Of a DNA stretch of 36,383 nt, positions 3,125-34,256 are shown in pieces (positions within the stretch are counted from its first letter, which is position 1; the number at the start of each line of letters is the position of its first letter). The position numbers were made by a program, and so were the translations under genes. The notes under the pieces were generated by a model. It had not been told where the DNA came from, searched no databases, and saw only the letters and a list, made by a program, of their open reading frames with translations. Origin of the DNA: Chthoniobacterales bacterium (GTDB taxonomy: Bacteria; Verrucomicrobiota; Verrucomicrobiia; Chthoniobacterales; UBA6821); the NCBI GenBank assembly GCA_019747895.1, contig JAIEQF010000049.1:1-36383 (forward strand). Direction: 5' to 3'.

Positions 3125-4198
3125 TTAGCGTTGTTCCTGCCATGCCTCTACAATTTGATGTATAGTTTCTTGAAGTGATTGAGTGATATTCCAAGAAGGA
3201 TAATGTTCCTGCATCTTGCGGAGATCAGAATAGTAACAAATATGGTCGCCAATGCGAGCCTGATCTACATAAAAAAATTGCTGTTTCTTGCCTGTAACTT
3301 CCTCTGTTAATCTAAAAGCTTCCAAAACAGAACAAGAATTCTTTTTTCCCCCACCTAAATTATAGACCTCTCCAATACGAGGTGCATTAATAAATGCATC
3401 TATAAAAAAAGCAACATCAAGTGAATGAATATTATCTCTAACTTGTTTTCCTTTATACCCATAAATTTTGTATTCTTTTTTTTCCAGGTTGCATTTAATC
3501 AGATAGGAAAGAAATCCATGAAGTTCCACGCCTGCATGATTTGGTCCCGTGAGGCAGCCCCCACGTAAACAGCAAGTTGGCATTCCAAAATAGCGCCCAT
3601 ATTCTTGCACCATCACATCAGCAGCTACTTTTGATGCCCCAAAAAGCGAATGGGTTGATTGATCTATTGTGAAACTCTCAGCGATTCCGTGCTCATATGC
3701 ATCATCAGCGTAATCGTACCGATATTCGAATTCTTTTATCGCAATAAGATTGGGAGCGTCTCCATAAACTTTATTCGTTGACATATGAATAAAAGGAGAT
3801 TCTGGACAAAACTGTCGCGCTGCCTCGAGAAGATTCATCGTCCCAACTGCATTTGTATCAAAATCCTCAAATGGAATTGCTGCTGCACGATCATGTGAAG
3901 GCTGCGCGGCTGAATGAATAATGGCACTAGGTCTTAACTGTTTTACTAATTCCAAAATTCCTCCGCGATCTCGAATGTCTAATTCATGATGTGCAAAATT
4001 AGGAACTTCTTTAACGAGACGTTCTTGATTCCAACGTGTATCACCTTGTTCCCCAAAAAAAACAGCTCGCTGATTATTATCAATTCCATGAACTTGATAA
4101 CCAAGCGCTGTTCCAAAATAACGCACAACTTCAGAACCGATAAGGCCTGAAGAGCCAGTTACTATAAGGCTTTTTTGCATTTGAAACACATTTTTCAT
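3125..4198 (-). CDS. NAD-dependent epimerase, CDP-paratose 2-epimerase-like
   Basis: An extended SDR related to tyvelose epimerase (CDP-paratose 2-epimerase). I place the start at the ATG at 4198, preceded by GGAAAAGTCTT, because the longer reading needs a TTG and adds a non-conserved leader. In this numbering the NAD-binding motif GSSGLIG is at 15-21 and MSTNKVYG at 139-146. The position normally held by the catalytic Tyr of YxxxK is Phe (SLFGASK, F186/K190). My recollection is that a subfamily of these epimerases carries Phe here, so it need not be a loss of function, but the chemistry may differ. [13 protein letters not shown] near 260-272 (start renumbered) is strongly conserved in the family. 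Neighbours are a GT-C transferase and a second epimerase. Confidence 0.8.
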
Positions 4199-4239
4199 AA
4201 GACTTTTCCAATCAATACAACATCCCTTTTTGACATAAA

Positions 4240-5814
4240 TCAAAGACTTTTCCTATAGGAATAAAGATTCATTCCTCCGGAGGTAAATACTAAATCAAAA
4301 TTATGATAAGTATTTAATAAATGTTTTAAAATTTGATCATTTTTTGCAGTGTTTCCTCCCGTATTTGTGTTAGATACAATTGCCGCAACAGTGATGTTCC
4401 CATAAATTTTTTTATCATCTAAAATGGAACTTGCCTGCTCAAATGTAAGCCAATTAGGAACCAGCACCGCTTTTCTTTGAGAATAATAAGGAATCTCAGG
4501 GCTCCAATCTTGACCTATAATTATTACTACAGAATCCACCGGGGTCACGGCTTGAATCTTATGAGAAATTTCTAACCTTGGGTCCTTGTCACCATTATGC
4601 TCTACCTCGATGATACTTTTATAGTAATCACGGTAAAATACAACACAGTCAGATGATATAACAAACCCAAAAAATAATATAAAAAGATAAAAATTTATTT
4701 TTGAGTCACTTTTCAGCTGAATGGAATAGAGAGCATATGACAAGCACAGAATTAGCCAAATATCATTAGCATATTGATAATAGTCGTGAATGATATGCAA
4801 ATTTGTAAAAATTAGCATTGGGATAAAAAATAAGACTAATAACCCCAGCATGAAATAACTTTGGTTTTTTTTACAGTAAAGAAATCCCACTAGTATGATT
4901 AGAATACTGTAAGAAAAACCTAGCGCGTGCGTTAGTATTCTCTTCCATAATACATCAGCCCAAAAGTAATAACTAACTCGCTGAGAAAAAGTGCCAAAAC
5001 TCCACACTTCAAGATTTTTAGATGTTAAAAAGTTAGCTATTCGATTCGATTGCTTCAAACAATCTGCATGATGCGTCCACCACATTAAGCATATCAAACA
5101 AATAAAAAAAATAACCCCTATTGGAATGGTTTTTATTAAAACATTCCTAAAATTAAATTTTTTTTTTGTATTTGATAACAGCAGACAGCTTAAAAAAATG
5201 GCAGATATTGCAAATGATGGAAAAGTAGTAATTTTTATTAATGTGCATAACATTCCAAAAAGTAATGTCCAAAAATACCATTTCCAACTAAATGTCTTGA
5301 AGTAGCGAACAGAAGACCATAAAAATAAGAAGCCTGCTAAAAGTGCTGTAGACTCTATCATGAACGCTCTACTCCAATATAGGTAACATGGAGATAGAAG
5401 AATTAAGATAGTTGATATATAGAAATACTCTCGATCAATTTTAAGTTCTTTGATAATTTCAGAAAGAGGAAAAAAACATACTAGAAAAAAGAGGAAGCTT
5501 AGTAATCTCCCCGAAAGATCTAATGGGATCCTGCTAATACCATGAAATCCCGCAACAATCATTTGAAAAATAGGAAATTCAAATGGAACAGACCAGGGAC
5601 AGCCTAATATAGGCGTTTCATAAGAAAAAATACTATTTAAAATGTTATGAAAATCAAACCAATATGCAGTTATTGCAGTTTGGGTTTGCCTAAAAGAATG
5701 CAAGCCTAACAGAGGTTCATTGGCATATTTAAGATTAAAAATAGCAACAACTGCAACAAGAAGTAAGATGATCGCTTCGTAAATAAATTTAGCGTTAGTT
5801 TTATTATTTTTCAT
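4240..5814 (-). CDS. GT-C type integral membrane glycosyltransferase, putative
   Basis: A 524-residue polytopic membrane protein with roughly ten hydrophobic segments, a first periplasmic loop containing [13 protein letters not shown] shortly after TM1, and a soluble C-terminal tail that begins after about residue 410. This layout matches PMT/ArnT-like GT-C enzymes that use polyprenyl-linked sugars in the periplasm, and the SFRQ-Q-A loop recurs in uncharacterised members of that group. The ATG is preceded by a GGAT-type site. The gene is clearly more AT-rich than the galE/rfb genes of the cluster, as expected for a variable O-antigen gene. The acceptor (glycan side branch or lipid) is unknown. 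A polymerase (Wzy-like) role is a less likely alternative. Confidence 0.6.
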
Positions 5815-19273: not shown

Positions 19274-19344
19274 AATTAACCGCAAAGAACGCAAAGGGTA
19301 CAAAGAAAGAAAAAATAAATTCTTTGCGTTCTTTGTGGTTAATT
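19274..19344. repeat. Long hairpin of the CGCAAAGAACGCAAAG type
   Basis: Two 23-base arms (19274-19296 and 19322-19344), identical as inverted repeats except for one base, enclose a 25-base loop. The arm contains CCGCAAAGAACGCAAAG, a short repeat I recognise as common between genes in many bacterial genomes. It fills most of the 105-base gap between two minus-strand genes. With no T-run, it looks like a REP-like element rather than a simple terminator. Confidence 0.6.
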
Positions 19345-21406: not shown

Positions 21407-23185
21407 ATGCAACCGTTGACCGCTTCTGATCACCTCTCTCCAAAAAAGCATTTCTCATTTGCTCAACTCTTCTTAGCACTCTTCGCTATCTTCGTCTATT
21501 TCTACGGACTCGGGAGTGATCACCTTGCCACCAACGGTGACGAACTCCTCTACGCACAGATCGTCCGTGCAACCGCTCAGAGCGAGCATTGGCTGCCACT
21601 TCAATCTCCCATCGCTTATCATCGCAATACTAAACCGCCGTTACTTTTTTGGCAGGGAATAATTTCTACTGATTGGGCAAAAAATTGGTCTCTCTGGAAT
21701 CTACGCTGGCCCAATGTTGTTTACACGCTCCTCACCGCATTCTTGCTTTTTCTGTTGGGTCGACGCCTCACAAAACGGGCTGATGTCGGCCTTCTAGCGG
21801 CATTGATTTTCTTAAGCTTTTTTGGAACATTCCGTTATGGCCGCTGTTTTCTCACGAGTGCCCCTGAAATTTTTTGGCTCTTCCTTCCACTTTTTATTTT
21901 GCTTCAATGTCCACGCGCCTCTTCCTCATGGAAGATAGCTCCTTTATCAGGCTTCATTATTGGGGTGGGACTGCTTTACAAATCGTTTGCACTAATTGTT
22001 CCCGTTGCTGCCGGGAAAGCCTGGTGTCACTTGCATGCCCATTCTTACGATTTTAAAAAATGGCTTCGTCATGACGCCATCAAACTCTTCGCTATCATTT
22101 TCGTAGCACTCGGTGTTTTTTCACTCTGGTTTTTGCTCGACCCTCATCCACAAGCTATTCTCCACGATTTTATCATCCGCGAAAACCTTGGGAAGTTTGA
22201 CACTGGAAGAGGAAATTATTTTTGGAATTTTTTTATCGGCAGCTCCAGCATCTGGCGCAATGTCATTGCCTATCCTCTCAACGCTGGCCTGCTGGCTCCC
22301 CCTCTCGTGGCGCTCTTTGTGCTTCAATTGGGGTCAGTGTTCAAATTTCAAATTTTTCTTAATAAATTCTGCCATTTCGATGTTAGCAAAATTAGAAATT
22401 TGAACACTGACCCCAATTTATGCTATGAAGAGGCGCTCCTCTGGATTTGGGTGATCACGGTTTTTACTGTCTTCTCTCTCCCTAATCAACGCGATGAACG
22501 CTATCTCCTGCTCGCGATGCCTGCCCTGGCCGTCCTCTTAGCACTGCATTGGGAAAAGATTCCGCGCTGGACCTTCGCCCTGACTCTCGTGGCTGTCTTT
22601 GTCATTACCGCGGGCCTTGCTGGCCTAGCGGTCTTGTTGGAATATCATCTCTCCTCTCCAATTTGGCATTTTTATCATTATCCGATCACCTATTGGTTTC
22701 TCTTAGGCATCACGATGGGAACTGCTCTCTACGGGCTTATGAAGACGGCGCCCACACGAAGCCTCGTTTGTCCCTGCATTTTATTGCTCTATCTTTGCTA
22801 CGCTGCCTTTCTCTCGCCATTTGATGGACCGCTCGGTCAGTTTGATCAGAGTGCTCGTGATGCGATTCGCGGCAAAAAGATTTGGGTTCCCGTGAATTTC
22901 AACGCTCGCGAAGAGTCCTATCGCTTTTTACTTCCTGAAAGTCCTGCTCTCCTCCCTTATGATTACAAAGCGAGCATCACCATTGATGCGATGAAAGCGA
23001 AACTCCCTCGTTTCATTGTCAGCCTCCCGTTGACCGACCAGAGTGGCGATAACCTTCAAGGAGCCCGCTTGCTGGGACGCCGGCTCAACCTCATTGATCG
23101 CTTCAATGCTCAAGAAACGCAAGCAATCCTGATGGGCAACATCGCCCCCTATCTTTTTCATCAAGACCTCTTGATTGAACGATAG
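21407..23185 (+). CDS. ArnT/PMT-like GT-C glycosyltransferase with in-frame palindrome
   Basis: A 592-residue polytopic membrane enzyme. After TM1 the periplasmic loop carries NGDELLYAQ with the catalytic-type acidic pair D45/E46, and KPPLLFWQ at 76-83 is the conserved motif of ArnT and related enzymes. About ten membrane segments follow, then a soluble tail after residue ~470. Such enzymes move a sugar from polyprenyl phosphate to lipid A, protein or glycan on the periplasmic side. Residues ~307-337 come from a 93-base palindromic element that adds 31 codons without breaking the frame; the inserted hydrophilic segment sits next to a membrane span. The ATG at 21407 has no strong ribosome-binding site. 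It is transcribed away from the O-antigen cluster. Confidence 0.75.
   Translation: MQPLTASDHLSPKKHFSFAQLFLALFAIFVYFYGLGSDHLATNGDELLYAQIVRATAQSEHWLPLQSPIAYHRNTKPPLLFWQGIISTDWAKNWSLWNLRWPNVVYTLLTAFLLFLLGRRLTKRADVGLLAALIFLSFFGTFRYGRCFLTSAPEIFWLFLPLFILLQCPRASSSWKIAPLSGFIIGVGLLYKSFALIVPVAAGKAWCHLHAHSYDFKKWLRHDAIKLFAIIFVALGVFSLWFLLDPHPQAILHDFIIRENLGKFDTGRGNYFWNFFIGSSSIWRNVIAYPLNAGLLAPPLVALFVLQLGSVFKFQIFLNKFCHFDVSKIRNLNTDPNLCYEEALLWIWVITVFTVFSLPNQRDERYLLLAMPALAVLLALHWEKIPRWTFALTLVAVFVITAGLAGLAVLLEYHLSSPIWHFYHYPITYWFLLGITMGTALYGLMKTAPTRSLVCPCILLLYLCYAAFLSPFDGPLGQFDQSARDAIRGKKIWVPVNFNAREESYRFLLPESPALLPYDYKASITIDAMKAKLPRFIVSLPLTDQSGDNLQGARLLGRRLNLIDRFNAQETQAILMGNIAPYLFHQDLLIER
22326..22418. repeat. 93-bp palindromic element inside the ArnT-like gene
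   Basis: Perfect 24-base inverted arms (22326-22349 and 22395-22418) beginning AATTGGGGTCAGTGTTC enclose a 45-base AT-rich centre. The length is 31 codons and both arms are read as protein (LGSVFKFQIF ... IRNLNTDPNL) within the glycosyltransferase. It shares the GGGGTCAGT end with the element at 28005-28095. Confidence 0.85.
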
Positions 23186-27162: not shown

Positions 27163-28434
27163 CTAATGCAACACCTTGTTTGAATAAGCCCATGCCTCAT
27201 TAAACATTACATGTCGAATGTGGCGCCGATTCCAACTGTAAAGAAGATGAATCATGCCATCGTGTGTTCGGAAAAAATAAGGATAGGAAAAATCACCTTT
27301 TGAATCTTCGACAATCGTTGCGATACGTTGCCAGGTTTTTCCAGCATCATGAGAAATGGCCAATCGAAGATTATTGCGAGCAGAAGTCGCCGTGTCATTG
27401 AAGGCCAAAAGAAGATCTCCATTAAAAAGCCGGATCGAAGCAATACCTGAATCGTGGTTTGGCAAATCGATTGGCTGCGGAGCTGACCACGATTTTCCGG
27501 CGTCGTTGGTTTCACTGCGCCAAATTTTTCCTGACGTTTGATAATCACGACAAAAAGTAACGGCACGCTTTTCATCAATAGCCGTCACCGAAGGCTGAAA
27601 ACAAGAGCATCCGCCAGCGATGCGGCTTTTGCTTGCTACAAAAGAACCTTTCCCATCAGGGCGTAACCAGAGTAGCTCTGGAAACTTTCCTAAAAATTCT
27701 TGATAGATGGGAACCATCCACCCTCCGCCAACGAGGGGCGTCGGGGCATTTTTTACTAACTCACTCAAATTAAAAAAAGGACTCAAGAGAAGCCGCCGAC
27801 TTTTAGCCCAGGCTTTTCCTTGATCGCGCGAGGATGTAAGATTGAGCTGACTTCCCGACCACTTTCCAACAGAAACCGTCACATAAAGCAACTGCAACAC
27901 TCCATCATCACCAGAAAAAACCAGCGCATTCCCAAGCCCCTTCACATAACACCCAAGCTCCCGCGATGCTTCCTCCCGCGTCATCATCACAAAGGGGTCA
28001 GCAAAGGGGTCAGTTCCGTTATTTCGATAATTTGGTGCCAGGTCATTTAATAGATGGTATGGCACCAAATTATCGAAATAACGGAACTGACCCCTATGAC
28101 GGAACTGACCCCTATGACTTATCGAACAATAAATTTTGACATCCGGCTGAAGCTCGCCACTTCCAGCGTACCATGTCGTCACTAAGGCCCCATCAGGCAA
28201 CTCGGTCATCGAGGCGACATGAGCCATGCGATAGGTTGCATTCGGATCAATGGTCTCCTCTTGATAAAAAGGAGCTTCATTTTGAGAGGCAACTGATGAC
28301 GCCATTTGAAAACGAGGAGGATTTTCTAAAATAGAATTTTTGTTTTTAAAAAAAATAAATCCTGTCACCAAGATCGTCAACAGCATGAAGACCCAATGCC
28401 ACTTCCAAAAATGAAATGCCTCGCTCGATAACAT
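27163..28434 (-). CDS. Sialidase-like BNR protein with an in-frame repeat insert
   Basis: A 423-residue protein with an N-terminal membrane anchor or signal (about 14-30) and a six-bladed-propeller pattern. Three Asp-box motifs (S-x-D-x-G-x-x-W) are visible at 201-209, 308-316 and 360-368 (ISHDAGKTW). AHVASMTELPDG near 71-82 is the usual first-blade motif of BNR_2 sialidase-like proteins. Activity on sialic acid is not established: many relatives act on other glycans. Residues ~105-145 (from HRGQFRHRGQF to NNGTDPFAD) are encoded by a palindromic repeat with tandem edges, so they interrupt a conserved part of blade 1. It is followed 8 bases later by the porin gene, suggesting uptake of released sugar. 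Confidence 0.75.
   Translation of the reverse strand: MLSSEAFHFWKWHWVFMLLTILVTGFIFFKNKNSILENPPRFQMASSVASQNEAPFYQEETIDPNATYRMAHVASMTELPDGALVTTWYAGSGELQPDVKIYCSISHRGQFRHRGQFRYFDNLVPYHLLNDLAPNYRNNGTDPFADPFVMMTREEASRELGCYVKGLGNALVFSGDDGVLQLLYVTVSVGKWSGSQLNLTSSRDQGKAWAKSRRLLLSPFFNLSELVKNAPTPLVGGGWMVPIYQEFLGKFPELLWLRPDGKGSFVASKSRIAGGCSCFQPSVTAIDEKRAVTFCRDYQTSGKIWRSETNDAGKSWSAPQPIDLPNHDSGIASIRLFNGDLLLAFNDTATSARNNLRLAISHDAGKTWQRIATIVEDSKGDFSYPYFFRTHDGMIHLLYSWNRRHIRHVMFNEAWAYSNKVLH
27990..28116. repeat. Palindromic element with tandem edges inside the sialidase-like gene
   Basis: Perfect 36-base inverted arms (28005-28040 and 28060-28095) with a 19-base loop start AGGGGTCAGTTCCGTTATTT. The left edge carries a 12-base tandem duplication (CAAAGGGGTCAG at 27990 and 28002), and the right edge an 18-base one (ACGGAACTGACCCCTATG at 28081 and 28099). 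It is translated in frame and leaves the gene open. The GGGGTCAGT end is shared with the 22326-22418 element. Confidence 0.9.
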
Positions 28435-32638: not shown

Positions 32639-33228
32639 TTAAAAGTTAGAAGTTCTGCTATTGAAGTCCTCCACAACATCATGGCTGTTAAATTTGATGA
32701 TCAATGTGATCATACGAGAAGTATTTTCAAAACCAGATTGGTGCCTCGATTGGCCAACTAAGAAGAGTGTCCAAAAACCGGAAATGGCATCTCGTTGTGA
32801 CGCCTGCATCGCACGTTGATAAGTCCAGACCTCGCGACCAGCGCCATCACGCGTCACGACATTGGGCGAACCAAATTTTTCTAGCACCTCGATTTTCGTT
32901 GTGCTGCCGGAATGAAGATTCATCTCCACGTTATAGTCAAATTACTTAGAAATTACAGGGAAGAACGCAGGAATTTTTAGAAAAGGCCAGGCCGAAGACC
33001 CAGCGCTATCTAAACGATAACGTGACGGGATGAGAGCGCAGTCTTTTCCTAAAAAGGACAAGTCAATTGCTTGTAAGTTCTAAGTAATTTGACTATACCT
33101 TGCGTGAGGCTGGAGTTCATTGTCATTACCGGTTGCAGCATCGAGGTGCAGCCGGAAAATAAACCGAGTGATACTAACAAGAGGCTCTTTTGTATTGTCG
33201 CGCCAAACAAATTATTTAATTTTTTCAC
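32639..33228 (-). pseudogene. BamE-like lipoprotein gene split by a palindromic insertion
   Basis: From a GTG at 33228 (AAGGA upstream) the frame gives a lipoprotein signal (KSLLLVSLGLFSGC) and MLQPVMTMNSSLTQG, then runs into a 166-bp palindrome and stops at 33049. Beyond the palindrome, YNVEMNLHSGSTTKIEVLEK followed by FGSPNVVTRDGAGREVWTYQ resumes in an open frame to the stop at 32639. This second part is the SmpA/OmlA (BamE) domain: it has the typical G-T-K-V-FG-P and V-W-Y positions. The two halves are the leader and body of one lipoprotein. A truncated cytoplasmic domain could still be made from the ATG at 32929, but it would not be exported. Confidence 0.7.
32932..33097. repeat. 166-bp palindromic MITE-like insertion
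   Basis: Perfect 20-base terminal inverted repeats (TATAGTCAAATTACTTAGAA at 32932-32951 and its complement at 33078-33097) extend inward with mismatches, including a second matching block TTTTTAG(G)AAAAG in each arm. The element carries no ORF and separates the signal peptide from the body of the BamE-like lipoprotein. The pattern is that of a non-autonomous transposable element. Confidence 0.8.
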
Positions 33229-33822: not shown

Positions 33823-34256
33823 CTGTATTGTATAACGTTTTTAGGTTTCAATGGCAAAGGCCTTTAAAAACCAAAAATCCACTCAGATTGCCCCAGAGAG
33901 AGGAAAAAAAGGCCTAATTTCTACAGAGAGGAATGCTCGAGAAGCTTCAATACCAAAAAATAAAATTATTAGCAACCTGCTGATCATCATGTCAATTTGA
34001 TACATTCTTGATACTAAACCAACCTTGTTTTGGGCGCTATGACCACAACACCCCCTCAAAAATCGGGGCTACAAAGGGCATTTACGGAGGTTTTTTTGAA
34101 AGAGAGGTTCAAATTTTGGAGAGGCCGGGTTTTGCTAAAATTTATAACAAATTTGCCATGAAGACATTGCTAATAAATTTGAAATTCGAAGACTGACCTC
34201 ACTTCTAGTCGCAATAAAAGTTTCTATCTTATTGCGAGTGCCCCCTGAAAAAGACG
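33823..34256. other. 434-base gene-free stretch with a degenerate palindrome
   Basis: No gene is supported. Positions 34101-34201 look like a decayed relative of the 22326-22418 element: GAAATTCGAAGACTGACCTCA at the right end differs from that element's arm at only a few of 21 positions, and ACAAATTTGCCAT and GGTTCAAATTT also correspond. A separate hairpin, TCGCAATAA/TTATTGCGA, occupies 34209-34237 just beyond the 3' end of the next minus-strand gene. It has no T-run. Confidence 0.45.

Follow-up and report, generated by a model that had tools for sequence, protein, structure and literature searches.

The gene at 21407-23185 on the plus strand of the window (the whole stretch of DNA that was analysed, 36,383 nt) encodes an ArnT/PMT-like GT-C glycosyltransferase of 592 aa and carries an insertion. 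The annotation was based on the ORF, Pfam and Foldseek. The protein matched Pfam PMT (E = 3e-10), its AlphaFold (AF2) model had a mean pLDDT of 85, and the top PDB match of this model in Foldseek was ArnT 5F15 (E = 1.4e-9). These results agree with the ArnT-like host named in the earlier note and place the protein in the PMT/ArnT family and fold. The protein fell short of the NCBIfam ArnT equivalog cut-off; therefore, ArnT substrate specificity is not claimed for it. The organism is a freshwater bacterium of the Chthoniobacterales type of Verrucomicrobiota, represented by a fragmented, MAG-like assembly of 55 contigs. Its relatives are Verrucomicrobiota, and the genome is indeed unrelated to Rickettsia, as had been supposed.

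The insertion, termed F1, is a palindromic element of 93 bp with GGGGTCAG ends, located in frame at 22326-22418 (no strand assigned). It consists of a perfect left arm of 24 nt (AATTGGGGTCAGTGTTCAAATTTC; 22326-22349, plus strand), a copy-specific centre of 45 nt between the perfect arms (22350-22394, no strand), and a perfect right arm of 24 nt (22395-22418, minus strand), where the gene reads ..NLNTDPN. The perfect 24-base inverted arms first noticed inside this gene were thus confirmed at these coordinates, and on extension they reached 39 nt at 90%. When the window was resampled five times under a first-order Markov model, the longest perfect inverted repeat (gap <60) was 10-12 nt, versus 24 nt here. 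The 19-mer GGGGTCAGTGTTCAAATTT, with three mismatches allowed, is expected ~0.01 times in the window and was seen as both arms of the element. These resamples, together with the other copies in the genome, ruled out a coincidental inverted repeat. Folded as RNA, the element gave -42.5 kcal/mol (z = -9.7). It sits within an uninterrupted ORF of 592 codons that has no stop and no frameshift; only one of its six frames is free of stops, and the gene uses exactly that frame. Of the intergenic F1 copies, four were tested, and in each of them all six frames were closed. The predicted peptides at the insert are VFKFQIFLNK and IRNLNTDPNLCYEE.

Alignment with homologues showed that the element is absent from this site in them. 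The interval from G294 to W346 comprised 29 residues in 101 of 104 aligned sequences (from Verrucomicrobiota, Gallionellaceae and others) and 53 in the window protein; the remaining two (L070 and L186) come from one congener genome, G003, and have 117. A native loop common to homologues was ruled out by the 101 sequences with 29 residues. The same residues in homologues, which the earlier note had named as evidence against an insertion, were not found among the 104 sequences. At this position the closest relative has FVMTFFRRKELSYEE, and the window protein has FVLQLGSVFKF...NLNTDPNLCYEE. The element was said to add 31 codons; it does span that length and keeps the frame, but it stands in place of ~21 bp. 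The ~7 host residues that read TFFRRKE in the closest relative are gone, leaving the protein on balance 24 residues (+72 bp) longer. No target-site duplication was seen at the ArnT insertion, and the loss of ~21 bp is not the signature of a clean insertion. In the AF2 model, the insert residues had pLDDT values of ~50-61 and lay between helices 281-321 and 336-357. Basic stretches in homologues at this position (KRRHH, FRRKE) suggest that the loop with its insert is on the cytoplasmic side. Most likely the insert is translated and forms an additional, disordered loop that affects the protein little.

The ArnT-like gene is intact and constrained. Relative to its closest orthologue, in congener G005, dN/dS was 0.095. 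When the changes were polarized by G002, the window branch had 13.7 nonsynonymous and 32.3 synonymous changes, and the G005 branch had 6 and 40. Mild relaxation of constraint on the window branch is possible, because replacement was higher there than on the sister branch. Decay elsewhere in the gene, the second observation that was to speak against a tolerated insertion, was not found.

The arm was searched for across the genome, and the other F1 copies that were recovered support the proposal that the palindrome is a repeat. Exact 19-mer arms were present in C17, C34 (the ArnT copy), C38 (two copies) and C49 (nested); C36 has a variant, a pair with two mismatches, and C48 a half copy, giving a total of about six F1 loci. 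The reversed-pattern control for the arm yielded zero copies. The arm was present also in congeners G002 and G005; among a further 387 genomes sampled from the phylum, none had it with up to one mismatch allowed. One of the C38 copies is missing from G005, and the neighbouring C38 copy is common to both genomes. The newer copy matches the G005 orthologue of its neighbour over 99 bp at 98%, indicating recent copying. Judged from such sequence comparisons, the F1 family is demonstrably mobile. Through the newer C38 copy (L047 2066-2145), the ABC-ATPase gene upstream has acquired a new C-terminal tail and stop codon. With its inverted ends, several dispersed copies and no transposase gene, F1 has these features of a MITE. 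A lone degenerate F1-like half arm with three mismatches lies in intergenic DNA of the window at 34182-34200 (minus strand). Nested palindromes with concentric GGGGTCAG arms were observed at L125 (G002:C145 3363-3593) and at L048 2245-2367 (C49).

The insertion is not an isolated event. Besides the palindrome in ArnT, the genome has no fewer than six in-frame palindromes of the GGGTCAG type, one of them in this window. The census was guided by GGGTCAG/CTGACCC pairs; being pattern-based, it is incomplete, and the long copy at 28002-28098 escaped the pattern. Genes with in-frame palindromes included those for TilS (C27), NadE and HemC (both C39), AroA (C44) and an AddA/UvrD-like helicase (C19), and the NadD gene (C51) has two tandem half-units that are common to G005. 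A hand count in this incomplete census of the genome gave ~17 paired elements, of which 6, ArnT included, are in frame. The right end is read as TDP in all seven intragenic copies, and the TDP frame is one of the two in which CTGACCC has no stop. G005 has no element at the TilS, NadE, HemC and AddA sites; G002 has different palindromes at the same place in HemC, AroA and AddA. We observed in AroA of G002 (L128, G002:C177) an in-frame perfect palindrome and about five tandem GACCCCTTTGCT units, which form FADP repeats. The second in-frame GGGGTCAG palindrome of the window lies in a BNR_2/sialidase-like gene (423 aa; 27163-28434, minus strand). It extends over 28002-28098 (no strand), with 48-nt arms and a 1-nt centre, and is absent from 53 BNR homologues. 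The G005 protein has a different palindrome at this site and aligns closely over the rest of its length.

Y1_Tnp genes numbered two in G000, two in G002 and one in G005; none was detected in G001, G003 or G004. The counts of GGGTCAG pairs were 12, 9 and 3 in the former three genomes and 0, 0 and 1 in the latter three, the single pair being a 19-bp match. The presence of Y1 tracked the palindrome-rich genomes exactly, in three of six congeners, although these numbers are small. Three intact Y1 ORFs of 316-321 aa contained HFH and YxxxNP motifs and were flanked by inverted repeats of 52, 49 and 58 nt with AGGGGTC[AG]G, 87-93% complementary; classical IS200/IS605 elements are not known to have inverted ends. 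The ~320-aa Y1 protein scored under the NCBIfam REP_Tyr_transpos cut-off, and no PDB chain matched it by sequence.

Several intragenic palindromes resembled the ends of these Y1 units. One half of the palindrome at 28002-28098 matched the left end of the intact, RAYT-like C47 Y1 unit (45/49), and the other half matched the right end (43/46 columns); deletion of the transposase gene from the middle would leave just such a structure, as in a MITE. The G002 HemC palindrome matched the end of one G002 Y1 unit (43/47), the G002 AroA palindrome matched the other (37/37), and the G005 BNR palindrome matched the flank of the G005 Y1 gene (41/45). The ends of the 28002-28098, G002 HemC and G002 AroA palindromes match Y1 units, a relationship by which these three are classed as putative MITEs. 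F1 arms had only GGGGTCAGT in common with any Y1 unit found, and the local alignment score was no better than that of the best shuffles; the reading that F1 was copied directly from the end of a known Y1 unit was therefore rejected. The repeats flanking the Y1 genes are related GGGGTC[AG]G sequences, not F1 arms. For the ArnT copy, the putative tie to Y1 consists of the common GGGGTCAGT end and the co-occurrence and nothing else, from which we infer that F1 was moved by a Y1 enzyme.

The ArnT gene of G003 carries at the same loop an unrelated in-frame palindrome of 184 bp with TTAACCCGGATATTTCA ends (L070, G003:C52:24272-24455). Because the palindromes in the window and in G003 are unrelated, two different palindromes landed independently in one ArnT loop. 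The arm motif of the TTAACCCGGATATTTCA family was counted 185/191 times (forward/reverse) in G003, 234/237 in G004 and 5/6 in this genome. With hundreds of motifs in G003 and G004 and no Y1 gene found there, the TTAACCCGGATATTTCA palindromes likely have a mobilizer other than Y1. Two other inverted repeats were observed in the window. That at 32927-33102 belongs to another family, TATAGTCAAATTACTTAGAAATTACAGGGAA, with 104-nt spacing; TATAGTCAAATTACTTAGAAATTACAGGGAA copies at L052 874-1044 and 4259-4428 lie close to either side of an ORF (3320-4309) that is transposase-like. The repeat at 19274-19344 (23 nt at 96%, AATTAACCGCAAAGAACGCAAAG) is at a gene boundary.

We consider it quite probable that the 93-bp element is a non-autonomous, MITE- or REP-like mobile palindrome with GGGGTC[AG]G ends that inserted into a loop of the ArnT-like protein and survived in a stop-free frame, and that its class is apparently Y1-derived. 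The insertion would have occurred after the lineage split from its closest sequenced relative, swapping out ~21 bp of the segment for a loop that links two membrane helices. Its survival would reflect the coincidence of the single stop-free frame with the frame of the gene, and a loop tolerant of extra residues. The GGGGTC[AG]G class would be derived from, and mobilized by, Y1 (HUH) units with 49-58-bp inverted ends; these units would give rise to short two-ended derivatives, which may move as hairpin-bearing single strands. Y1 enzymes elsewhere act on hairpin-bearing single strands. Insertions that break genes would be lost, and those in intergenic DNA, or in a stop-free frame in a tolerant loop, would persist. 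Resident ends may also be targets or templates for new elements, as suggested by the nested or tandem GGGGTCAG ends (C49, C17, G002 C145, and the FADP repeats in G002 AroA) and by the different elements at shared sites. A broader scheme, which we put forward only tentatively, is that palindromic MITEs are made in this genus by a Y1 (HUH) transposase whose type has not so far been linked to repeats, and that they enter the same permissive loops in housekeeping proteins again and again. The resident palindrome would be swapped in each species for a version made from the ends of its own transposase, and transposition would diversify the loops with the frame kept.

The open frame could instead be luck, in a decaying insertion within a gene that is turning into a pseudogene. 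The slightly raised nonsynonymous count on the window branch is consistent with this, and with one frame in six open, openness by chance is possible; however, a gene of 592 codons without stop or frameshift and with dN/dS of 0.095 does not look like one in decay, and palindromes in the same frame are found in the housekeeping genes for TilS, NadE, AroA and HemC, which are unlikely all to be pseudogenes. We regard such decay as improbable. A somewhat more plausible alternative, though still an unlikely one, is that the palindrome spread without a Y1 transposase, through recombination, replication slippage or gene conversion between repeats, with hairpin templating keeping the arms identical. 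This would accommodate the absence of a Y1 unit matching F1, and arm-to-arm templating is suggested both by the nested and tandem ends in C49, C17 and G002 C145 and by the matched copy-specific flanks TTTTGGGG..CCCCAAAA, AATTGGGG..CCCCAATT and AAATAGGGG..CCCCTATTT. New copies at unlinked empty sites nevertheless require a mobilization step, and the other intragenic palindromes resemble deletion derivatives of Y1 units. It is hardly credible that the insert is skipped in expression, through ribosome bypassing at the hairpin or RNA-level removal, to give a protein without it. The mRNA hairpin is very strong, as skipping would have it, but bypass is unnecessary with an open frame, the reading frame shows no apparent take-off/landing codon pair, and the 93 bp have no intron-like features.

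The origin and the mobilizer of coding palindromes in bacterial proteins have been in question since the Rickettsia elements. A single genus here combines in-frame insertions with sites that are empty in close relatives, with candidate parent Y1 units that are intact in the same genomes, and with different elements at the same loop in sister species; this combination makes the origin of such palindromes directly testable. The insertions also mark permissive loops in conserved enzymes.

The earlier note described in-frame palindromes as best known from Rickettsia; they are known there, but also in Opitutus terrae, in tnpA_REP genes and in other bacteria. Rickettsia palindromic elements (RPE) are in-frame palindromes in unrelated protein genes (Ogata 2000, 2002, as cited in PMC10969869 and PMC3733652). 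The elements described here are likewise short in-frame palindromes in protein genes and absent from homologues. They differ in their Verrucomicrobiota host, in their GGGGTC[AG]G ends and in the link of several members to a Y1 transposase unit. Intragenic REPs have been reported in many bacteria, those of the GTAG type being most numerous in Opitutus terrae, of the same phylum, and two Xanthomonas species have different REPs at roughly the same place in recB (PMC3733652). Our elements resemble GTAG/CGTC REPs as intragenic palindromes in the same phylum with a hypothesized Y1/RAYT tie; some REPs supply stop codons to neighbouring genes, as does copy 1 of C38. They differ in their size of 50-100 bp and their long arms. 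Assignment of F1 to the classical GTAG/CGTC REPs was rejected: its ends are GGGGTCAG, and the foot tag GT[AG]G or CGTC is missing. REPs and REPINs usually exceed 100 copies per genome, versus about six loci for F1.

REPs occur in frame inside subclass 2.4 tnpA_REP genes, and Y1 subclasses 2.1 and 2.3 are stated to have yielded no REP-like sequences (PMC6006769). As in the TnpA_REP/RAYT REPtron, a Y1 gene with HuH and Y---NP motifs is flanked here by inverted palindromic repeats and accompanied by dispersed copies; unlike in the REPtron, the elements have no GT[AG]G guide. MITEs are internally deleted derivatives with inverted ends and can make in-frame fusions (review PMC10969869). Inverted ends, internal deletion and in-frame placement are found here too; the difference lies in the candidate parent, here a Y1 (HUH) unit. 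The literature search yielded nothing relevant on GGGGTCAG palindromes. In-frame palindromes were already known; what is new is the family and its lineage, with another tag and a candidate parent unit for several members.
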